Source of the DNA: a virus
DNA length: 22,987 nucleotides
Direction: 5' to 3' (one strand)
Virus record (IMG/VR): IMGVR_UViG_3300047678_000265
Coordinates: 1 to 22,987 of that record
Part shown: positions 1-15,286 of the stretch, piece by piece
Numbering within the stretch: position 1 is the stretch's first letter
How the letters are laid out: each line of letters starts with the position of its first letter
Notes under the pieces: model-generated
Seen by the model: only the letters and a program-made list of their open reading frames with translations
What the model was told of the DNA's origin: nothing
Databases searched by the model: none
Translations under genes and position numbers: made by a program

Positions 1-567
1 CGATTTGAATCTCTCTGCGTTGGTGATGGGGCAATTGTAGGATTTGGGAAAGACGGCTTGGTGATCATCGAGTACGCCTACAAGTCTGGTGCGCCCTATT
101 ATTTGGCTTACGAAAGACCCGCCACGCCATTTATCGCTAATGGCAAACAAGTTGCCCCTTCATCGGAAGTGGATGCCTACTTTGCCGAGTTCGGCGGCAA
201 TTTCACTAAAACCACTACATTGGTTAAACCCGATGGTTCAGTTAAATGTGTAAAGGTGGAAAACCAAATCGGTCGGAGCCTACCATACACTTCTCCGTAT
301 TTCGTTGACAAGTGGCCCTACGATGCCTATAGTATGGTAGCAGTAATGTCGGATGGGGTTCAGTCTTTTGTGGAAGTCACAAAAACGCCGACAACTGGCA
401 TCGAGACACATTCAATCCCTGCGGTGCAAGTCCTGCAAGAATTAATGGCCTTCAAAAACACAACCGGCAAATTCGTTCTTCGCCGGTGCCAGAAGGCATT
501 CAAAACTTTCAAGGATAAGAACTGGCAGCATATGGATGATGTCTCCGTTGGAGCCATTACCAAATGA
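1..567 (+). CDS. PP2C-family Ser/Thr protein phosphatase, 5'-truncated
   Basis: The reading frame is open from base 1, so only the C-terminal 188 residues are present and the start lies outside the window. Predicted role: metal-dependent removal of phosphate from protein Ser/Thr. Visible PP2C motifs are CVGDGAIVGF near the left edge, the strand-turn motif MSDGVQSF in the middle and MDDVSVGAI at the C-terminus, whose Asp pair usually binds metal. The family is normally about 220-260 aa, so some 50-80 residues are missing, including the N-terminal metal-binding Asp motif. The stop overlaps the ATG of the NMNAT-like gene (ATGA), and the third gene of the set encodes a kinase. Paired PP2C and kinase genes are typical of TerY-P (YegL/YegK/YegI) systems, in which the vWA gene often lies next to the phosphatase. 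The family call is fairly secure; the target is unknown. Confidence 0.75.
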   Translation, partial: RFESLCVGDGAIVGFGKDGLVIIEYAYKSGAPYYLAYERPATPFIANGKQVAPSSEVDAYFAEFGGNFTKTTTLVKPDGSVKCVKVENQIGRSLPYTSPYFVDKWPYDAYSMVAVMSDGVQSFVEVTKTPTTGIETHSIPAVQVLQELMAFKNTTGKFVLRRCQKAFKTFKDKNWQHMDDVSVGAITK

Positions 568-2916: not shown

Positions 2917-4034
2917 CGTCGATACTTAATATTTATTACTCGTTGATAAGAGATGTCACCACTGCGATTGACAGACTCCAAACAAAAATTTCCACGGAGT
3001 TTGATAAGCCTCAGCCGGAACAACCTCAATTCCAGTTTCATCCAACACAAGCACAGCCAGCCAACGCTGATGCCCCGTCTTCACCAACATCCAGTGCTTA
3101 TCGCCCCAAGTTGGGCGAAAAGCTTCCGTGGTTTTCTCATGGTATTAAAGGCTTTTTACAAAAATTGTGGCACGGTAATTCTCCGAACAACCCAAATTGG
3201 GCAGGACATCGGACTGAGAGTGTTGACTATCTAACTCTTGATGAATATAATGCAATCAAGGATGGATTGGACGAGCATGTAGATGCTTTTTTTGAAGAAT
3301 ACAACGATCTTTCTGACGTACTCATTCGGTTTAAGAAAGAATTAATTGGTATCGTCAAGCGGCACATGAACGATACTATTCGAACAATGCGAGACTTAAA
3401 CTTAACAGGCACCGTGTCCGCCCCAACTACACCAAACACGACAACAACCACCACAACCCCAACTACTGCACCAGTAACTCCGTCGCCAACCAAATCAACT
3501 GCCTCTAAGCCAGCAAAAAATGGCGGGGAAGTAACATCAAGATCGAATTTGCCAGAACCAAAACCAGCAGAACCGGAAGAAGAATTCGGATCAGGCATTC
3601 CAAAAGACGATATACCGAAAAAGCCAACTGCACCATTGGAAGCACCAAAGTCTAATGAAGCACCAAAGGCTAATATTGACAGTGGAAAACTACAGGGTCT
3701 TGCCCATAAGTTGGCCGCCGAAATCGATAAAGACCCAGAAGGTGTCTATGATAAGGGTTATGAATTCCAAGGCATTGTAATTGACGGAAAGAAATTCCCT
3801 GCATTTGCCCTGCCATCAAACATTGACTTCAAAGAGAAGAATGGCGTGATAAGGGCAGTGCAAGAAGATGGTCCAGACATTCCAGCAGCTATTGAATTTT
3901 TCAACAATTTGCCAGATGAGGCAAAAATGGAAATCTACAATCAATGGAGACACCATCTTGCCAGCGAATCGGTTAAGTTAATTGGAACAATCGGAGAGAA
4001 AACTGAAGCTTACTTGCAGTTGCTAAGAGGATAA
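2910..4034 (+). CDS. Unknown protein with Pro/Thr/Glu-rich linker
   Basis: A 374-aa protein of unrecognised family. Residues 1-35 look helical; 36-65 are Pro/Gln/Ser-rich; 66-165 form a folded, largely helical part (WFSHGIKGF to RDLNLTG). Residues about 169-257 are a low-complexity linker with a run of seven Thr followed by Pro/Lys/Glu-rich sequence. Residues 258-374 are a second folded region with segments YEFQGIVIDGKKFPAFALP and EAKMEIYNQWRHHL. No signal peptide or membrane segment is visible. Two domains on a long flexible linker suit a virion or adaptor protein, but that is a guess. The ATG has no ribosome site and follows a TATATAG box by 3 nt. Its stop overlaps the end of the convergent Nudix gene by 12 bp. 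Confidence 0.75.
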   Translation: MHPSILNIYYSLIRDVTTAIDRLQTKISTEFDKPQPEQPQFQFHPTQAQPANADAPSSPTSSAYRPKLGEKLPWFSHGIKGFLQKLWHGNSPNNPNWAGHRTESVDYLTLDEYNAIKDGLDEHVDAFFEEYNDLSDVLIRFKKELIGIVKRHMNDTIRTMRDLNLTGTVSAPTTPNTTTTTTTPTTAPVTPSPTKSTASKPAKNGGEVTSRSNLPEPKPAEPEEEFGSGIPKDDIPKKPTAPLEAPKSNEAPKANIDSGKLQGLAHKLAAEIDKDPEGVYDKGYEFQGIVIDGKKFPAFALPSNIDFKEKNGVIRAVQEDGPDIPAAIEFFNNLPDEAKMEIYNQWRHHLASESVKLIGTIGEKTEAYLQLLRG

Positions 4035-4436
4035 TTGCTGCAATTTGTCGAAGTATTCCGGCAAATCTTTTTTCAAATCAGATAGTAATGGGTAGTCTTT
4101 GAGGTCATCGAAGGCTACCCATTCCCATTCTGTGTGTTCGTCATTTAGTTTACACTCAAATGGCTTTGTGTAGAAGAAAAAGGTTGTCCACCAACCATCT
4201 CGGACTATTGAACCGAGATTCTTTCCTTCAGCTTGTCCAACTTCTTCCGTGGCCTCTCGCTTAGCAGTCTCCAACGGGGTTTCATCTCCCTTAGCGTGAC
4301 CTCCCGGTAAACACCAAGTTTCCCCTTCATTTGAATCGCTACTTCGCTTGAGCAGCAATACAGACTTACCATCCGTAAAGAAAATACCGGACCCTCGATC
4401 TGTATGGTCTTCCACTATCCACTCCTTAAAGTTCAT
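4023..4436 (-). CDS. Nudix hydrolase
   Basis: A 137-aa Nudix-fold pyrophosphohydrolase. The Nudix box runs from Gly46 to Gly67 (GGHAKGDE, then REATEEVG) and matches GX5EX7REUXEEXGU with all catalytic Glu residues (61, 64, 65) present. The preceding WCLPGG and the C-terminal HTEWEWVAFDDL are typical. Length is normal. It hydrolyses a nucleoside diphosphate linked to another group; whether that is a damaged nucleotide, NDP-sugar, NADH or capped RNA cannot be told. It is the last gene of a minus-strand operon, and its ATG overlaps the stop of the upstream gene (ATGA). Phages including T4 (NudE.1) carry Nudix enzymes. With NMNAT and several glycosyltransferases nearby, NAD-related or NDP-sugar substrates are worth testing. 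Confidence 0.9.
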   Translation of the reverse strand: MNFKEWIVEDHTDRGSGIFFTDGKSVLLLKRSSDSNEGETWCLPGGHAKGDETPLETAKREATEEVGQAEGKNLGSIVRDGWWTTFFFYTKPFECKLNDEHTEWEWVAFDDLKDYPLLSDLKKDLPEYFDKLQQLSS

Positions 4437-6153: not shown

Positions 6154-8871
6154 ATGATAACATTGGAAGAATATAGCACGACAAAAGAACAACTTCACCA
6201 GCAACAGCAAGACAGCGAGGTCAATGTCCTCGGTGGTTTCATGCCGAACGACCCTGACTTGTTCATCAATGAAGCTAAGGCTGAAAAGTTTGCTGAAGTT
6301 GGAAGCATTCCCAAGACTCCCATTATGTTCGACCAATGGGACACATTGTTCCTAAATCAATTTCCACCCGAGTTTTATCGACAAGCATTGGTTTGGAGAT
6401 ACCGGGAAGGATTGATAATGGCAGCAGAGATGATTGAAAGAGGCCAGCCAATTCCTGAAGATGCTAACGTCAAGTTCTCAACACGAGGCAAAAGAAGCAA
6501 AGATCAAAATGTATCTGCACAAAGAGGCGAAGGTGAAGCATGGTTTCATGTGAAAACTTTCATCCAACCCCTGTATGAAAAGCTCACCAAAAAGAGAAAC
6601 CTGCAATTACTTGCCGAATCAGATTATGCAGACAAAACGGCCTATGAAAAGAAGTTCGGAAACTACGGTTTTGACTTGAGCGACAGACACCAAGACAAGA
6701 GTGGTCATTGGCACGCAAAAAACTTCAACTTTATGACTGAGGAAGCTGCCAAGAAAATCATTGCCGAGTGGCGTATGGCTATTGCTACCGGCTTCCTGCA
6801 CCATCCAGAAGACGAACATGTCCAAACGGCGGTCAAGGGAGCTAAGGCAAGTTATCAAAATTGGGGTGGCGGACATAATCCACAAGAACATAATGCAATG
6901 GTGGATTGGCAAGGCAACCTGATCGATGCTGCCCATCGTGGTGAGAATCAAGGTACATACACCATGACCCACGGAGCAGAAACCGCTATCGCTCTGGCAA
7001 AACAACTTGGACTTAATGTAAGTCCTGATGGAAAAGTAGTTTACAAATATCGCAAAGGTGACAAAGTAGTTGAACAAGCTCATGAAATGCCAGTTCTGTT
7101 GCCGGGATATCTAATTCCTACTGGTGTGGTACATGGATACCAAAACAGGGTGAAGAATCTGCAATTTTACAAGAGCAAAATGCAAGAAGAACCGCAAAAT
7201 GCTTCTTGGAAAACTGCATATGAAGAAACCATCAATAACCATAAAAAGGTTATGGAGAAAATGCCTCGTAAAACTGCGTTCCAATGGAATGTAAGTCGAT
7301 ACAATCTTTCCACAAAACCAGTGAAGGTCAAAAATCCTGATGGTACTGAACAAATCCTACATGTTAGAAAATACAGAACAATGTATGCTAATCATGATTC
7401 AATGGCAGCAACAACGCCAACCAAAATGCATCAAGAACGTATTGAAGGCTCAAAGGAAGCCAAAGATGTTTTGAAGAAATGGTTCCTCGATGGCGGGACA
7501 AAAGATGGCCGCTCAATGGAAGATGAATGGCGTGTATTGATTCCGCCGGGAGTACGAATTGAAGCGAATGTTCCAGTCGAAGGCGTTCAAATCAAGAATC
7601 CCGTGCAAGCTGGTGTAGATTTGTTCATGGATTTCTTGAGTGGAAGTGCAACTCATGGCGAGGTATATCCAATCCTGATGCAAATGTATGGTGATGTGTT
7701 GAACTTCACCAACACTCGTTTGTTGGCTTTGGCGGGGGAACCTATGCTGCAAACTTTTGCACAACAAATTGCTCCGCTTGGGAAAAACGCAAAAAATGTT
7801 CACAAGTGGCCTGAAGAATTGAAAGCTTCTTGGCAATCCATTTACAACTTTTTGCTCAGTCGTTCAAGAGCTTACGCCAGCCAATTGGCTCAAATAGATT
7901 TGGGAGCCGGAACCAGACGAGATAGAGAGTCACGAGCGGCCCGAATGGATATGTTGCGACAAATAGAACCAAGTATTACTGATCCAAAGCAAAAAGAAAC
8001 TGTTGGCAAATGGAAACAGCAATGGCAACTATCCCCCGAAGAACAAGCTCAGTTCCAAAAGACTGTGGGAATTGCTCCGGGGTCTGGTATTCGTCACGAT
8101 GCAAGACAAGCACCTGATCGTGGATGGCCGGGACATGAAGTCGGCGGGCCTAGACCTGATTCGACTAAACTCGTTCAGTTCGCCCACAGCTTTGAAGAGT
8201 TGAACAAAAAGAGAGCCGCCCAGATTTCACAAGGACAAAAAACCCGTCACGAAGGGGCTAAATCTTTGGATTTGGAAGGATTAAAGGAAAGCATTAAACA
8301 GGAATTGACATTGCGTTATGCAATGTATGATGACTATTTCTTCTATGATGTTTTGAATCAAATGATGCAAGGTGTCCCAGAAGATAAGGTTGATGCGGTT
8401 CACGCAAAGAACTATGCTATTGAACGCACCAAGGCTGACCTAAAATCCAGCGGAGTGCGTGTTGCCAATATAGAAAACATCAAGGTCAAAGGATTGTCCA
8501 AGAGTGACGAAGCCCATAAGAATCGCATTTTGAAGGATTTGAAGGGCGAAATGCGACCAAAAGCAACTTTGAAGCCCGCTTTTGGTAATGAAAAAGTAAT
8601 GGGATTAGGTGATGACCAGAACTACATTAATTGGCTTGCCAAAAGCCCTCAATGGATGAAATCTGCTGAAGATAAAATCAAGTCTATGGGAATAGAAAAC
8701 GATACACTGCATCCTTTGGTGAAAGCCGTCAATAAAGCAAAAAAAGTAATGCAACAACGACCACCACAACCACAAGTTCCCCAAGCTGCACCCACCCAAC
8801 CATCGCAAGATTGGTTGTTCCCCGGTTTGGAAAACATGGCTCTAACAAAGAAGAAAAATGCAAAACCTTGA
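6154..8871 (+). CDS. Large unknown protein (possible virion protein)
   Basis: A 905-aa soluble, polar protein, one of the largest here, with no recognisable catalytic motif, signal peptide or membrane helix. The N-terminus is Gln-rich (HQQQQDSEV). Residues 50-110 and 180-240 are helical with many aromatic residues (FYRQALVWRYREGL, IIAEWRMAIATGFLHHP). The middle has a beta-rich patch (HEMPVLLPGYLIPTGVVHGY), a region around EDEWRVLIPPGVRIEANVP, and a helical C-terminal third. The tail is Pro/Gln-rich and ends in basic residues (KKKNAKP). It lies between neck genes and is expressed from a T4-late-like box, so an internal or minor virion protein is a fair guess, but only a guess. The next gene starts inside its last 14 bases. 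Confidence 0.8.
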   Translation: MITLEEYSTTKEQLHQQQQDSEVNVLGGFMPNDPDLFINEAKAEKFAEVGSIPKTPIMFDQWDTLFLNQFPPEFYRQALVWRYREGLIMAAEMIERGQPIPEDANVKFSTRGKRSKDQNVSAQRGEGEAWFHVKTFIQPLYEKLTKKRNLQLLAESDYADKTAYEKKFGNYGFDLSDRHQDKSGHWHAKNFNFMTEEAAKKIIAEWRMAIATGFLHHPEDEHVQTAVKGAKASYQNWGGGHNPQEHNAMVDWQGNLIDAAHRGENQGTYTMTHGAETAIALAKQLGLNVSPDGKVVYKYRKGDKVVEQAHEMPVLLPGYLIPTGVVHGYQNRVKNLQFYKSKMQEEPQNASWKTAYEETINNHKKVMEKMPRKTAFQWNVSRYNLSTKPVKVKNPDGTEQILHVRKYRTMYANHDSMAATTPTKMHQERIEGSKEAKDVLKKWFLDGGTKDGRSMEDEWRVLIPPGVRIEANVPVEGVQIKNPVQAGVDLFMDFLSGSATHGEVYPILMQMYGDVLNFTNTRLLALAGEPMLQTFAQQIAPLGKNAKNVHKWPEELKASWQSIYNFLLSRSRAYASQLAQIDLGAGTRRDRESRAARMDMLRQIEPSITDPKQKETVGKWKQQWQLSPEEQAQFQKTVGIAPGSGIRHDARQAPDRGWPGHEVGGPRPDSTKLVQFAHSFEELNKKRAAQISQGQKTRHEGAKSLDLEGLKESIKQELTLRYAMYDDYFFYDVLNQMMQGVPEDKVDAVHAKNYAIERTKADLKSSGVRVANIENIKVKGLSKSDEAHKNRILKDLKGEMRPKATLKPAFGNEKVMGLGDDQNYINWLAKSPQWMKSAEDKIKSMGIENDTLHPLVKAVNKAKKVMQQRPPQPQVPQAAPTQPSQDWLFPGLENMALTKKKNAKP

Positions 8872-9007: not shown

Positions 9008-9324
9008 TGTCTAATCCATTTCAAAATCTAAATCCCTTGGCAATCGGCATGAAGAAACTTCTCTTTGACTTGCTTAAAGATAAGTATCCAGAGCATGAAG
9101 AAATGATATCAAGACTGGCAACAGTTGTTGTCACGGAAAAAGATTACTCTGCTGTAACTAAAATGCTAATCGACATTTATTACAAGGGATTTTCTCAAGC
9201 AGTCGAAGCCCAACGAGACCAACTGGAAAAATTAGGATATAAGGTCCAAGTTTATCATGGAAGCAATTCAGGTCCGACTCCGAAGATTTTCAATCAGCAA
9301 AATGTGGTTGATGATCAGAAATAG
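9007..9324 (+). CDS. Unknown small protein, 105 aa
   Basis: A 105-aa protein of unrecognised family. Residues 1-80 look mostly helical (LAIGMKKLLFDLLKDKYPEH; MISRLATVVVT; AVTKMLIDIYYKGF). The C-terminal 25 residues are polar and probably flexible. There is no membrane segment. Its ATG overlaps the stop of the 49-aa gene, so it is the third member of a coupled set with the 905-aa protein. Its last 35 bp overlap the convergent gene ending at 9290, so the two 3' ends share sequence. Confidence 0.7.
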   Translation: MSNPFQNLNPLAIGMKKLLFDLLKDKYPEHEEMISRLATVVVTEKDYSAVTKMLIDIYYKGFSQAVEAQRDQLEKLGYKVQVYHGSNSGPTPKIFNQQNVVDDQK

Positions 9325-9889
9325 TACACGACACAATCAATCCGCCATTCTTAGGCTCCGTCTGCATTGTTTTCCACCATCTGAACTGATTGTATTTTGC
9401 TCCGTTTCGGTACATTGATGGGTAAACAATTGAGTTGTTTTCAAGTTTTTCCAAGTTGGTCCAAAAGGCAAGGAAGTATTCATCTTGCTTTATGACCACC
9501 CCTTCAAACTTGAACTTATCACCATAATCAATCTTTTGGTATGAGTCTCCGTAAAGGGAGTCCGTGTGTTGCCGTATGATTGCCGGAAGACAATGAAAAA
9601 CAATTACATGGTCTTCCAGAAACTTGTCCTTCGGCTTCTCGTTCTTAACAATGGGAATTTCTGGTGACGTAACTACCTCTTTCACTGCAACCTTTTGCTC
9701 CACAATAACTTGTGGCTCGTGTCGTATTTCTTCCAAGATTTTCCGGTCGTCCTCATCCAATTTAGCGTCTGGATTGATAACGACTTGTCGCCAACTGATG
9801 TTGTAGACGGTCACTTTGGACTTATCCCATCGGTCTTGATTAATGATCAGCGGATTAGGCCGGGTGAGAGGTAAAAATGGGTCTTTCAT
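9290..9889 (-). CDS. Unknown protein, 199 aa
   Basis: A 199-aa protein of unrecognised family. The first 60 residues contain VTVYNISWRQVVINPDAKLD, then an acidic helix (DEDDRKILEEIRHEP) and a Val/Lys/Glu-rich linker (about 67-90). The C-terminal 105 residues are a compact beta-rich domain (DHVIVFHCLPAIIRQH, FEGVVIKQDEYFLAFWTNLE, FRWWKTMQTEP). The ATG at 9889 has only a weak upstream GAGTCAAG. It runs against the 105-aa gene and away from the sigma70 promoter at 9907, so it is outside the stress cassette. It may be a minor virion or host-interaction protein; nothing in it decides. Confidence 0.7.
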   Translation of the reverse strand: MKDPFLPLTRPNPLIINQDRWDKSKVTVYNISWRQVVINPDAKLDEDDRKILEEIRHEPQVIVEQKVAVKEVVTSPEIPIVKNEKPKDKFLEDHVIVFHCLPAIIRQHTDSLYGDSYQKIDYGDKFKFEGVVIKQDEYFLAFWTNLEKLENNSIVYPSMYRNGAKYNQFRWWKTMQTEPKNGGLIVSCTISDHQPHFAD

Positions 9890-9906: not shown

Positions 9907-9934
9907 TTTACAAACCCGACACCTGTGCTATAAT
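9907..9934 (+). promoter_or_regulatory. Sigma70-type promoter with extended -10
   Basis: TTTACA (9907-9912) and TATAAT (9929-9934) are 16 bp apart, and TGC precedes the -10 box to give the extended -10 form TGCTATAAT. It is the best host-type promoter in the window. It points at the GC-rich membrane-stress cassette, whose first ATG is at 9983 with an AAAGGAGAG ribosome site. The expected start of transcription is about 9941. This suggests that unmodified host RNA polymerase reads the cassette, possibly early in infection. Confidence 0.7.
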
Positions 9935-9982
9935 GGTAGGGCAGGGAGAGTAGATAGGATAGTTATTCAAAGGAGAGAAAAA

Positions 9983-11083
9983 ATGCGAAAGTTTTTTGCG
10001 GGTTTGGTTGCAGTTGCAGTCTTCTCTTGGGGTGCGGAACTTGCTACTTATGCAGGTTCCCGGCCAAGTGGCAGCAGTGGTGCGAGTAGTTCGAGTCGCC
10101 CCTCTGGATCAAGCGGCGGTAGCTCCCGGCCTTCGGGGTCGAGCGGTGGTAGTTCTCGTCCCTCTGGTTCCAGCCCTTCAAGCGGCGGTAGCTCCCGGCC
10201 TTCGGGGTCGAGCGGTGGTAGTTCTCGTCCCTCTGGTTCCAGCCCTTCAAGCGGCGGTAGCTCTCGACCGAGCGGCTCGTCCCCCTCACCTTCTACCGGC
10301 AGTTCCCGTCCTTCGGGATCGAGTCCAAGTTCAAGCCCACCTTCATCTAGTGGTAGTTCTCGGCCGACCGGATCGCCTCCTTCCAGCACCAGTAGCGGCA
10401 GTTCAAGCAAGCCGACCAGTAGTTTCGACTCTGGTGCCAGCCGGGCGCAAACCCGAGTTGACAGCAAAGCAAGATATGAGGCTTCATCGAAGCCCAAGGA
10501 AAGTTACACCGCTTCCAATGGACGGAGCGTCAACATTGACGCCAACCATCCTAGCACTACGACGGTTCGTTCCCGAGTATATGACCATGACACTTACGTG
10601 ACATATCATCGAACCTACGTCACGCACTACGAGACGATGCCTCGGTACAGCTACTACTCGACCTTGCCAGTCGTGTATGTCGGTCCCGGCCATTACTCGC
10701 ATCTGTTCTGGTATTCGACCTTTGATTGGACGTTGAGTATGCAGGCAATGTGGCTTTACAATCACCAAGCCAACATTGATTCTCAGTTGTACCAGCAGCG
10801 GATGCAGAATGCCGCTCTACGGGCCGAAGTTGACCGGTTGCGTGCCTCTGGGGTACGTCCTGACCCGACTTTTGTTCCTGCCGATTACAAGGGCAAGGAA
10901 CAGTTGATGTATGACCCGGAATTCGTCGCTAGTGCTGCAAATATGCGAGATACGGGACATTATGCCAGCGGCGGAAGCGGTGGTGGCGGGTGGGTGATAC
11001 TGTGGACGCTACTTATCATCGCCGTCATCATCCTGATTGTTTGGCTGATATTCGGCGTGAAGTGGGAAACGAGCCGATACTGA
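9983..11083 (+). CDS. Secreted/membrane-anchored protein with SRPSGSS repeats
   Basis: A 366-aa protein with an N-terminal signal peptide (MRKFFAGLVAVAVFSWGAEL; cleavage likely near Ala24). A Ser/Pro/Gly repeat region (about 25-155) is built from SRPSGSS units, and the DNA carries two perfect 69-bp tandem copies. A Tyr/His-rich extracytoplasmic part (about 190-260) includes YSYYSTLPVVYVGPGHYSH. A short coiled coil (NAALRAEVDRLRASG) precedes PDPTFVPADYKGK. One transmembrane helix (about 337-357) leaves a 9-residue tail. The layout 'WLYNH..., Leu-zipper, PDPxxxP' recalls envelope proteins encoded near PspA/YjfK-type genes in bacteria. It has a sigma70 promoter, a strong ribosome site and a higher GC content than the phage genes around it, which suggests acquisition from a bacterium. 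Function: inferred envelope-stress component. Confidence 0.8.
   Translation: MRKFFAGLVAVAVFSWGAELATYAGSRPSGSSGASSSSRPSGSSGGSSRPSGSSGGSSRPSGSSPSSGGSSRPSGSSGGSSRPSGSSPSSGGSSRPSGSSPSPSTGSSRPSGSSPSSSPPSSSGSSRPTGSPPSSTSSGSSSKPTSSFDSGASRAQTRVDSKARYEASSKPKESYTASNGRSVNIDANHPSTTTVRSRVYDHDTYVTYHRTYVTHYETMPRYSYYSTLPVVYVGPGHYSHLFWYSTFDWTLSMQAMWLYNHQANIDSQLYQQRMQNAALRAEVDRLRASGVRPDPTFVPADYKGKEQLMYDPEFVASAANMRDTGHYASGGSGGGGWVILWTLLIIAVIILIVWLIFGVKWETSRY
10111..10263. repeat. Perfect 69-bp tandem repeat, 2.2 copies
   Basis: Copy 1 is 10111-10179 and copy 2 is 10180-10248; they are identical. A third copy matches for its first 15 bases before diverging. Each unit begins AAGCGGCGGTAGCTCCCGG and encodes 23 residues of the Ser/Pro/Gly region. 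Because 69 is divisible by three, gain or loss of units keeps the frame. Complete identity of the copies suggests a recent duplication or continued slippage or recombination. Confidence 0.95.
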
Positions 11084-11152
11084 TACATTTGAATTGTGGT
11101 GCATCTGGAACCATTGTTCCAAGCCATTGACGAAGAAAACAGGAGAAGAGAA

Positions 11153-11821
11153 ATGCCAAAGGTAACTTTGTGGGACATGCTGACGAAGAAGAAGGCTGTG
11201 GCTGAATTGGAGCATTACAATCCTCTGAACCTTCGGATTGGAAACTCCATGAAAGTCAACACGGTGGACACAAGTGACCTCAACTTCACGTTGAAGTCCA
11301 TTCGTGAAGTCAATCGCTCCATCGATGGAACAGATCATAAGTTCTGTGATTACGATGTCCTTGCCCGTCCCTTCGGCAAGAATGAAATTCGCAAGCGACT
11401 TCGGTTAGTCCCTCGTGAAGAGAAGGATCGCAACCTCACCCATGATGTGGTGTTGTTCGAATTCCGGGAAGAGTTTGCCTATGATGAAGGCTTCCATGAT
11501 TGGTTGAAGGTCAACTCCGAAGTCACCCTTGGGGATTTGAAGCCCGGCGACCCCGACCCGCCACACTATTGGCGAGTGAACGACCTCAAGTCTCCGTGGG
11601 AAGCCAAGACGGTTTCCATGCGGGACGAGGACGGCAATGGAAAGATTGACGATAAGGAAGTTCACAATGGTCGTTTGACTTATTGGGACTTCTGGCGTAA
11701 CGTCAATGACGAAGGTGGCAACAAAGTCACCGAGTTTTACAACGTGGAAATGGATCAGGATGGCATGTTCTCGATTTGGGTTGGCCGTCTGATCGATCCT
11801 CTCCAAGTCAGTGTCATTTAA
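11153..11821 (+). CDS. YjfK/DUF2491-like protein with an EF-hand loop
   Basis: A 222-aa soluble protein. I start it at ATG 11153 because AGGAG lies 7 nt upstream; an in-frame upstream start at 11096 would add 19 residues without a ribosome site. Near the N-terminus, HYNPLNLRIGNSMKVNT resembles the 'NPLGLRLG' opening of the YjfK family, and the C-terminal LTYWDFWRNVNDEGGN, then EFYNVEMDQDG, follows the same plan; length agrees (YjfK is about 220 aa). In the middle, DEDGNGKIDDKE is a perfect EF-hand calcium loop (Asp1, Asp3, Asn5, Gly6, Ile8, Glu12). In bacteria YjfK is linked to the PspA-like YjfJ, and here a PspA-like gene follows directly. The family call is by eye and moderate; the EF-hand is clear. 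Confidence 0.6.
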   Translation: MPKVTLWDMLTKKKAVAELEHYNPLNLRIGNSMKVNTVDTSDLNFTLKSIREVNRSIDGTDHKFCDYDVLARPFGKNEIRKRLRLVPREEKDRNLTHDVVLFEFREEFAYDEGFHDWLKVNSEVTLGDLKPGDPDPPHYWRVNDLKSPWEAKTVSMRDEDGNGKIDDKEVHNGRLTYWDFWRNVNDEGGNKVTEFYNVEMDQDGMFSIWVGRLIDPLQVSVI

Positions 11822-11833
11822 GTAGGAGATAGC

Positions 11834-12457
11834 ATGTCTTTGAAAGCGTTTTGGAATTGGTTGTGGGGCGTGAAGACGACGGACGACCAGATCACCGAGA
11901 AGAAGGCGAAGTTGGAGTCGGCCCGCAAGGCCGTCGAAACTGGTGCCAGTTTGTGCCGTGAATACGAACGTAATGTTCGTATTCACTCTGAAAACCGCAA
12001 CGTACTACGGGCGAGAGTTGACAAGGCCCTGAAAGACGGCCGGGATGATGAAGCAATGCAGCTTCAAGAGAAGCTGGACGCCCAAGAAGACGCCGTTACT
12101 GACTATACATCCAAGTTTGAAGCGGCCAAGAAGGATCAAGAGTTGGCGATTCGCATTGTGGAGCAATTCCAACAAAACCTCCACGGCAATGTCAACGACT
12201 TGCAAGAATACAAGCGACAATTGGAAATTGCGGAAGCCAAGAAGGAAACCGCAAAGCTGGCTGCCGATCTTTCCACTGAGTCAAACGATTTGGCCTCTAC
12301 CAAGGCCGACTTGAAGCGGAAGATCGACGCCGCCAACTTCGAGGCTGAAACTGTTGCCTCGGCCTTTAAGCCACAGGAAGACAAATTCTCCGACATGGCA
12401 AAGAAGGAAGAAATGCGCCGAAAATTGCAACAGCGGAAAGAAGAATTGAAAGTCTGA
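11834..12457 (+). CDS. PspA/IM30-like coiled-coil membrane-stress protein
   Basis: A 207-aa, almost fully helical protein. The N-terminus MSLKAFWNWLWG is an amphipathic, Trp-rich helix as in PspA membrane-binding segments. Residues 20-175 are long coiled coils with the PspA-like 'ALKDGRDDEAMQLQEKLDAQE' spacing; the tail is charged (EEMRRKLQQRKEEL). Length matches PspA (about 220 aa). PspA/Vipp1 proteins assemble on the inner face of stressed membranes and limit proton leak. AGGAG stands 7 nt before the ATG, and the gene is 12 nt behind the YjfK-like gene, as third member of the cassette. A perfect 12-bp inverted repeat lies inside it (11958-11986). A non-PspA coiled coil remains possible. Confidence 0.65.
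   Translation: MSLKAFWNWLWGVKTTDDQITEKKAKLESARKAVETGASLCREYERNVRIHSENRNVLRARVDKALKDGRDDEAMQLQEKLDAQEDAVTDYTSKFEAAKKDQELAIRIVEQFQQNLHGNVNDLQEYKRQLEIAEAKKETAKLAADLSTESNDLASTKADLKRKIDAANFEAETVASAFKPQEDKFSDMAKKEEMRRKLQQRKEELKV
11958..11986. repeat. Perfect 12-bp inverted repeat inside the PspA-like gene
   Basis: Arms GTGAATACGAAC (11958-11969) and GTTCGTATTCAC (11975-11986) are exact inverse complements around a 5-nt loop, GTAAT. The hairpin falls in codons for residues about 42-51 (CREYERNVRI). There is no U-run after it, so it is not a typical terminator. It could be a protein-binding site, an mRNA structure or a recombination or nuclease target. Confidence 0.85.
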
Positions 12458-13823: not shown

Positions 13824-14786
13824 TCACTCCTTTAACTCCGCATTATACTCAATTTTTGCGTTGCCGCCAATGTGAAAATTTGTTTTGTATATCAAATTGT
13901 TAACAATTCTGTCAATCGTCGCTCTGGTTACAGCATATATTTTTGACGCCTCTTTACGAGTACATCCACTCTTGATTATTCGTCTGATTTCAATGGCTTT
14001 TTTCATATCCAATTTGTTTGGGCCATAGTTAGGCAAAACATCCCGTACCTGTGTGGTATCAATTTTGTATTGAAAACAATCAAATGACACATACGGTTTT
14101 ACTAATTCAACGAATTGAAAATAGCTTTTTGCACCAACGTTTATTATCTTTCTCTGCCGATTGCAGTTAATGCCGAGTTCCTTAACTTTATCTACAAGGA
14201 AATCCACTTCCACAGTGGTAAATGAATTAGTGCAAACAACAATAGTTTTTCTTTGTTGATTATTACACCCATCTTGCAAATACCAATGGGCCAAAATGTA
14301 AGGATTAAGCTTCAAATCGCTCGGAACGATTTTTTTTCCGGTTAAATACCACTTGTCTCTAATTGCCTTGAATAGTGGATGGGTTCCAGTCCAAAACGCA
14401 GAGGCGTAGCAAAGTTCATTTGAGTCTCCGTGAATAACTTTGTTGTTTTTTCCTCTCTTCGGTTTTGTTGAAACCTCTTCATGGATTTCTTTTGCAAATG
14501 GCTTAAAGATTTGCTGGGCATATCCAACATATTCTTTCATGGTTGATTTCATCTTCAACCGAAATCTACCTTGTTTGTGGACAGTTCCATCTCCAAGCAT
14601 ACACGCAGTCATCAAATCATCTTGTTGTTGTGTAAACTTATCTACATCATATTTCAAATTGTAATAGTTTAGCTTATACTTTTTAAGATATCGAATTATC
14701 GTACTGACTGCCACGCCAAAATGCGTGGCAGCTTCTCGATTAGTTTTATCTTTCAACATCACAAGTAAGTCTTCCTTATCAATCAT
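13824..14786 (-). CDS. LAGLIDADG homing endonuclease with HTH domains at both ends
   Basis: A 320-aa free-standing homing endonuclease. I use the ATG at 14786 because GGGAG lies 5 nt upstream; the frame extends 24 codons further but into AT-rich leader. Residues 1-40 form a helix-turn-helix (NREAATHFGVAVSTIIRYLKKY). Two LAGLIDADG helices follow: MTACMLGDGTVH and ILAHWYLQDGC, each with the catalytic acidic residue. The C-terminal part carries a second HTH (GCTRKEASKIYAVTRATIDRIV). It cuts a specific DNA site to spread its own gene. It sits on the strand opposite to the virion genes, directly before the small virion-protein gene. Not within an intron, as far as can be seen. Confidence 0.85.
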   Translation of the reverse strand: MIDKEDLLVMLKDKTNREAATHFGVAVSTIIRYLKKYKLNYYNLKYDVDKFTQQQDDLMTACMLGDGTVHKQGRFRLKMKSTMKEYVGYAQQIFKPFAKEIHEEVSTKPKRGKNNKVIHGDSNELCYASAFWTGTHPLFKAIRDKWYLTGKKIVPSDLKLNPYILAHWYLQDGCNNQQRKTIVVCTNSFTTVEVDFLVDKVKELGINCNRQRKIINVGAKSYFQFVELVKPYVSFDCFQYKIDTTQVRDVLPNYGPNKLDMKKAIEIRRIIKSGCTRKEASKIYAVTRATIDRIVNNLIYKTNFHIGGNAKIEYNAELKE

Positions 14787-14839
14787 ATTGCTCCCGTATT
14801 TTGTATAGTATTTTATCAATTTGGAAATGAAAATGTAAG

Positions 14840-14882
14840 CATAAATAAAATGCAGCATATAAAATGTTGTCTTAAAAGGAGG
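14840..14882 (+). promoter_or_regulatory. TATA-type late promoter candidates and strong ribosome site
   Basis: CATAAATA (14840-14847) and TATAAAAT (14858-14865) both resemble the T4 late box TATAAATA. They are followed by AAAAGGAGG (14874-14882), the strongest Shine-Dalgarno sequence in the window, 5 nt before the ATC codon used as start of the next gene. The region also includes the 5' leader of the divergent endonuclease. Confidence 0.5.
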
Positions 14883-14887
14883 TTTTT

Positions 14888-15286
14888 ATCGCACTCATCA
14901 GCCCAGATGTCGGGGAGATTGCACTTCTTCAGTATATTGTTAACTTGGTTGCTCCAACCCACCCTGTCATGAAGTTGTTTACCAACAACTACACCCCGAA
15001 CGACAGTGCCACGCTTGCCACCTTGGCCGAAGCATCCCAAGCTGGTTATGCCCCAATTACACTTGCTGGAACCAACTGGACAACGACTTTAACCGCTGGC
15101 TTGGCAACAGCCGTGTACAGCGAACAAACATTCAGCTTCACCACTGGCGTGAATGTTTATGGGTATTTCGTAGTTGATACTACTGGCACCAAGCTTTTGT
15201 GGTTGGAACGATTCTCGGGTGCGCCATTCACTCTACCAAGCGGTGGTGGTACGATTGCAATCACCAGCCGTGTAACTTTGGATTAA
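14888..15286 (+). CDS. Small phage virion-type protein with apparent ATC start
   Basis: A 132-aa protein if it starts at ATC 14888, 5 nt after a perfect AGGAGG. No ATG, GTG or TTG is found in frame near that site; the first in-frame TTG (14945) would remove 19 residues and has no ribosome site. The resulting N-terminus, (M)ALISPDVGEIALLQYIVN, fits a family of small phage proteins that open with L-PDVGE-LL-YI, then KLFTNNYTP and a GYAPITLAGTNW segment. The rest is beta-rich (VYGYFVVDTTGTKLLWLERF) and ends TSRVTLD. Such proteins are usually minor virion or fibre-linked components, but their exact role is unclear. A strong terminator hairpin follows. It is transcribed with the neck and tail genes. 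Confidence 0.75.
   Translation: MALISPDVGEIALLQYIVNLVAPTHPVMKLFTNNYTPNDSATLATLAEASQAGYAPITLAGTNWTTTLTAGLATAVYSEQTFSFTTGVNVYGYFVVDTTGTKLLWLERFSGAPFTLPSGGGTIAITSRVTLD

Follow-up and report, generated by a model that had tools for sequence, protein, structure and literature searches.

Large phages carry a conserved, co-directional unit of three genes, P1, P2 and P3, which has its own host-type promoter. P3 is a divergent PspA/IM30-family (ESCRT-III-like) protein, and the cassette is real, conserved and coherent, belonging to the PspA kind rather than to a new kind. PspA owes its name to its induction by phage and is a host answer to membrane damage. A conserved viral operon in which a PspA relative is joined by two new partner families, and frequently by a K+ channel, suggests that large phages make this answer their own, and that the uncultured large viruses of bacteria in which it is found are equipped with their own means of keeping the membrane of the infected cell working. 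With moderate confidence, we read the cassette as a phage-carried, mobile, PspA-centred operon for envelope maintenance during long infections. It provides a defined gene set for studying how phages maintain an energised cell over hours, and P1 and P2 are two named partner families that could be sought in bacteria.

The cassette, its promoter and its junction

The stretch of DNA analysed here (the window) is a virus contig of 22,987 bases (IMGVR_UViG_3300047678_000265) that encodes a sheath, a sheath stabiliser, a tube and a head–tail adaptor, and thus represents the setting of a large contractile-tailed phage. The cassette occupies positions 9983–12457, between two conserved phage genes, P0 and Fib. 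The features discussed below are:

9290–9889, minus strand: P0, a conserved phage gene and the left bound of the site (from conservation in relatives)
9907–9934, plus strand: sigma-70-type promoter TTTACA-N16-TATAAT (from the pattern and its conservation with the cassette)
9983–11083, plus strand: P1, 366 aa
10109–10263, plus strand: perfect 69-base tandem repeat in P1, 2.2 copies
11153–11821, plus strand: P2, 222 aa
11624–11659, plus strand: EF-hand-type Ca2+-binding loop DEDGNGKIDDKE in P2 (from a sequence pattern)
11834–12457, plus strand: P3, 207 aa
11840–11872, plus strand: N-terminal amphipathic segment LKAFWNWLWGV of P3 (from the amphipathicity of the sequence)
14888–15286, plus strand: Fib, a conserved phage gene and the right bound of the site (next to P0 in most relatives)

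An earlier sequence-only reading had described three co-directional genes with higher GC, strong ribosome sites and a host-type promoter, and all of these were confirmed. The ribosome sites are AAAGGAGAG, AGGAGAAG and AGGAG, and the GC content of the block is 52.4%, against 43.1% in the remaining window, with a peak of 61% in the P1 repeats. The true start of P2 is the ATG at 11153 (behind AGGAGAAGAGAA) and not the GTG at 11096, because its relatives begin MP-TLWxMLTKK. At the right bound, Fib is preceded by AGGAGGTTTTT; the codon at its start position (14888–14890) is ATC, where homologues begin MAL; either the start codon is non-standard or a base is wrong.

Scanning with P1 identified L002, a viral contig of 99 kb that shares the trio, its order and its neighbours with the window, scans with P2 added L009 and a further virus (L005/L007), and a scan with the head–tail adaptor yielded 80 relatives, L018 among them. 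The sequence-only reading had proposed to look for the set in other phages. The trio is complete and in the same order in four viruses besides the window (L002, L009, L018 and G011). The L005 virus retains P2 and a broken P1. Five of these six viruses (the window, L002, L009, L018 and the decayed L005) hold the cassette at the P0|Fib junction, where P0 and Fib lie 3.4 to 6.1 kb apart. Among 66 distinct loci with both genes, they overlap or are separated by 90 bases or fewer in 46. The sixth virus, G011, is a relative of 254 kb whose junction is closed (locus L095); its trio lies about 120 kb away in the same order, with matches to P1 (E 3.4e-34) and P2 (E 1.3e-23) and a PspA-like gene. The presence of the ordered trio at another site indicates that the cassette travels as a unit. 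No gene lies between P1 and P2 or between P2 and P3 in the window, L002, L009 or L018; in G011, P1 and P2 are separated by a small gene for a membrane protein, which has a weak DUF350 match (E 0.009, below the cut-off). A few genes behind the PspA-like gene of the same phage lies a membrane-anchored AAA+ ATPase (PF00004; L103, 15–1202). In eukaryotes, AAA+ ATPases act on ESCRT-III polymers.

Loss of the cassette is visible in L005 and L007, which are one virus from two samples: P1 is broken by a frameshift and an in-frame TAG, P2 is intact, no P3 was found, and remains of a TnpB-type gene follow. Because P3 and P1 have been lost there, the cassette is accessory and dispensable and can decay. 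A P1–P2 fusion in this virus, in which the membrane helix reads into P2, was considered and discarded in view of the frameshift and stop codon. The junction also hosts other membrane cassettes. In L040 it holds genes (7300–8369) for a ZorA-like membrane protein of the MotA/TolQ/ExbB type (PF01618) and for a protein with one helix and a beta domain. L030 has at the P0 junction, in the absence of P1 and P2, a PspA-like gene (E 7e-5) whose product is membrane-anchored, and similar homing-endonuclease-like genes occur at or near the junction in the window (13824–14858), L030 (7267–8277) and L059 (1074–1955).

Profiles built without the window recovered its P1, P2 and P3 at E 2.6e-68, 2.1e-71 and 3.7e-9, respectively. 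Protein identity to the window is 35–41% for P1, 32–49% for P2 and 19–27% for P3, and third codon positions are the most changed in nearly every orthologue pair; from this low identity and the predominance of third-position changes, we conclude that the genes are old and that their frames have been kept open. These data bear on two other origins of the cassette, a join to bacterial DNA during assembly and recent acquisition from the host, either of which might explain why cassette GC lies 9 points above that of the remainder. However, the same gene order and neighbours recur in contigs of different samples, which upholds the phage location, cassette GC follows that of each virus (35 to 55%), and P1 and P2 orthologues that are just 32–49% identical to the window are still open in frame. 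We consider this explanation very remote. None of the three genes had a tblastn match in 50,697 phage records, and P1 and P2 had no relatives in plasmids by tblastn. No bacterial relatives of P1 or P2 turned up when genome contigs were scanned twice with short peptide patterns, but such patterns detect close relatives alone, so that this result does not show the two families to be missing from bacteria.

The promoter matches 11 of the 12 consensus bases, and a TG precedes its second hexamer. In a pattern scan, TTTACA-15..18-TAnAAT occurred once in the 23 kb window. Each virus with the cassette at the P0|Fib junction, five in all, has TTTACA-N16/17-TAnAAT at a distance of 13–30 bases from the start of P0, and none of the other 61 loci shows it within 150 bases; this indicates that the promoter travels with the cassette. 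L002 has two copies of the pattern, and the window, L005, L009 and L018 have one each. The second L002 copy, at 10869, lies directly behind a K+ channel gene and is followed (10869–11302) by a membrane protein that is weakly zf-HC2-like (anti-sigma-factor-like). Transcription by host sigma-70 polymerase would free the cassette from the neighbouring late genes. This promoter type, which is not common to the late genes, argues against a role in assembly or lysis, in which P3 would either remodel membranes in the manner of ESCRT-III where capsids are assembled on them, or delay holin action. Such a role would suit the position amid head and tail genes and the predicted remodelling fold of P3. Yet most relatives that share these structural genes lack the cassette, and no recognised holin or endolysin adjoins it, and we judge an assembly or lysis role improbable.

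Protein families of the cassette

The assignment of P3 relies on its orthologues. The L018 protein matches PF04012 (PspA_IM30) with 36.5 bits, over the cut-off of 33.9, along residues 22–217 of 220. The L009 protein reaches 26.4 bits in the same register, the G011 match is likewise weaker and in register, and reversed P3 sequences gave no match to this family. The window protein by itself has no Pfam PspA match and gave coiled-coil noise only in Pfam, PHROGs, NCBIfam and PDB searches; it joins the L018 family at E 3.7e-9, the next outside match being at E 0.018. In its AlphaFold model (mean pLDDT 78, with less certain ends), a short N-terminal helix is followed by a hairpin (16–67/71–148) and by helices at 154–176 and 184–205. 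This predicted order equals the hallmark of PspA, Vipp1 and ESCRT-III, namely alpha0, an alpha1–alpha2/3 hairpin, alpha4 and alpha5 (PMC8281802). The best fold matches include chains of Vipp1 and PspA (Escherichia coli PspA 4whe, Z 12.0, 120 residues, r.m.s.d. 2.4), and unrelated helical hairpin folds match at similar Z. An hhalign comparison of three P3 sequences with five YjfJ-type PspA proteins gave a weak match (P 0.002, 67 columns).

The window protein's lack of a PspA match of its own, and the many folds that helical hairpins resemble, would suit a P3 that is a mere coiled coil in a set unrelated to PspA. We give this idea little credence: the L018 orthologue exceeds the Pfam cut-off at full length and in register with negative reversed controls, L009 and G011 add weaker in-register matches, and the P3 model has the PspA helix order. 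Thus the earlier view of P3 as PspA-like was borne out through its orthologues and the predicted helix order. The N terminus of P3 appears to keep a membrane contact by differing means: it is amphipathic in the window (shuffle P = 0.056) and L002 (P = 0.013), and a full membrane helix in L009, L018, L030 and, by eye, G011 (L103).

P1 consists of a signal peptide, Ser/Gly/Pro/Arg repeats, a conserved part rich in Tyr and Trp and, at the C terminus, a strong membrane helix (residues 338–356), so that its description as a membrane repeat protein agrees with the repeats and the predicted helix. From its predicted topology, P1 most likely faces the periplasm and has a short cytosolic tail. Homologues are found in L002, L009, L018 and L103, and a broken one in L005. 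Direct searches of Pfam, PHROGs, NCBIfam and PDB with the window P1 and P2 returned nothing, and a candidate relationship of P1 to PspB (E 1.6) was rejected as noise. We know of no counterpart of P1 in yjf operons.

Without a signal or a membrane helix, P2 is by sequence a cytosolic protein, with a beta-rich model (mean pLDDT 75). Fold searches found no known fold, and the best VIA-align hit was a designed barrel (Z 4.0). An EF-hand-type loop (D-x-[DNS]-x-[DNS]-G-x-[ILV]-x-x-x-[DE]) is present in five of the six P2 proteins and absent in G011; the pattern occurs in 15 of 1,451 ORFs of at least 150 aa, and 14 of the 15 should be copies of P2. The sequence-only reading had called P2 YjfK-like, which could not be established. 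In five viruses, P2 had no profile match to DUF2491 (PF10679, cut-off 25 bits) up to E 10 or to DUF4178 (PF13785), and pairwise hhalign with single E. coli YjfK and YjfJ sequences gave no match. A profile–profile comparison of P2 with DUF2491 scored 24.2 (P 0.0096) at the same N-terminal position in both, narrowly above all 200 column shuffles (maximum 23.8) and against a maximum of 15.9 in eight unrelated phage families. The match centres on one N-terminal motif (LRIGNSMKVNTVD in P2, LRLGGAFELDxL in DUF2491), at which G011 P2 reads FHLDTLKFR and E. coli YjfK FTLDTLAFR, and this motif is suggestive of kinship to YjfK.

In L002, L009 and L018, a K+ channel gene follows P3, directly or after one or two small genes. 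The encoded proteins are of the six-helix type, exceed the Ion_trans cut-off and have a TVGYGD filter and an Arg/Lys-rich S4-like segment. No K+ channel was found in 18 further records searched, including the window and the L005 virus, and the gene is absent from the searched sequence of three of the six cassette viruses. Channels of the same Ion_trans family are annotated in other phage records in which, unlike in the cassette viruses, no relative of P1, P2 or P3 was found. Between P3 and the channel, L018 encodes (3115–4125) a 336-aa protein of no family, whose N terminus forms a membrane helix and whose tail is rich in Gly, Ser and Asp.

Known PspA systems and the proposed function

Bacterial yjfJ-type operons join PspA, DUF2491, DUF350 and a K+ channel (PMC11237479). 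E. coli yjfIJKLMC and its Vibrio, Photobacterium and Aureimonas equivalents combine a PspA of class YjfJ with DUF2170, DUF2491, DUF350, DUF1190 and glutathionylspermidine synthase and, in some, a K+ channel. Given this shared content, the phage cassettes look like reduced, reshuffled versions of a yjfJ-type operon: a PspA-family gene adjoins one for a cytosolic protein with a similar N-terminal motif, and three phages add a K+ channel, one a gene with weak resemblance to DUF350. Unlike those operons, they have no DUF2170, DUF1190 or polyamine gene, and their P2 falls below every DUF2491 threshold. CesT/Tir (DUF2170), the hallmark partner of the YjfJ class, was absent from Pfam scans of the set, and it is on DUF2170 that membership of that class fails. 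The whole yjf-type PspA/DUF2491/DUF350/DUF1190 operon is carried by Vibrio plasmids (L012, L015 and L017) and an Aureimonas plasmid (L013), so the bacterial set is mobile too.

The cassette shares with pspFABCDE, the canonical phage shock response, a PspA-family protein with a predicted N-terminal membrane contact, but it has no PspF, PspB or PspC, and its other partners are unrelated. PspA relatives within large phages have precedents: ORF54 of the Ralstonia jumbo phage RsoM2USA, whose latent period is 270 minutes, is annotated as phage shock protein A (PMC8504454), and a transcribed operon of Jug phages includes terD and, adjacent to it, a pspA-like gene (PMC12363816). Unlike in Jug phages, TerD was absent from the records searched. 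The sequence-only reading knew of no phage in which the complete set had been described. Although pspA-like genes as such are on record in jumbo phages, for the P1–P2–P3 set we found no report in the literature searched, which is not proof of its being undescribed. Infection by the jumbo phage AR9 strongly lowers the host pspA transcript (PMC5312081), and hence a viral copy could stand in.

In the envelope-maintenance operon that we favour, P1 would report from the periplasmic side, P2 would connect P1 with P3 in the cytosol, and P3 would polymerise on the inner leaflet through its N terminus and plug or stabilise a leaky membrane. Membrane potential and phage production would thereby last through a long infection, and the K+ channel, where present, may tune the potential or ion balance. 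Several findings count against envelope maintenance: P2 lacks both a demonstrated link to DUF2491 and a match to any known fold, DUF2170, PspB, PspC and PspF are absent, the window has no K+ channel, L005 has lost P3 and P1, and hairpins match many folds. A bolder proposal, which we put forward as tentative, is a self-contained viral membrane-homeostasis system comprising a periplasm-facing sensor (P1), a Ca2+-binding relay (P2), an ESCRT-III-like polymer (P3) and a voltage-gated K+ channel, by which the phage would control both membrane integrity and potential.

The main rival to envelope maintenance is superinfection exclusion, or an anti-phage module, in which the set would sense the entry of a second phage and depolarise or seal the membrane, with the K+ channel as effector. 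It would fit a site that is an accessory junction, closed in most relatives, and that in L040 holds a ZorA-like gene for a MotA/ExbB-type proton channel (E 2.5e-7); moreover, Ter genes of jumbo phages have been proposed to counter superinfection (PMC7824862). Against this, no PADLOC defence model matches P1, P2, P3 or the channel, three of the viruses have no channel, and PspA relatives normally protect membranes, so that we regard superinfection exclusion as unlikely.

Elsewhere in these phages, the window encodes at 58–2890 the tail end of a PP2C phosphatase homologue, then a NadD-like gene and a Ser/Thr-kinase-like protein with a long C-terminal part. The counterpart in L002 (54–2589) is a PP2C phosphatase (PF13672) followed by a Ser/Thr-kinase-like protein, and the two are predicted to form a signalling pair.
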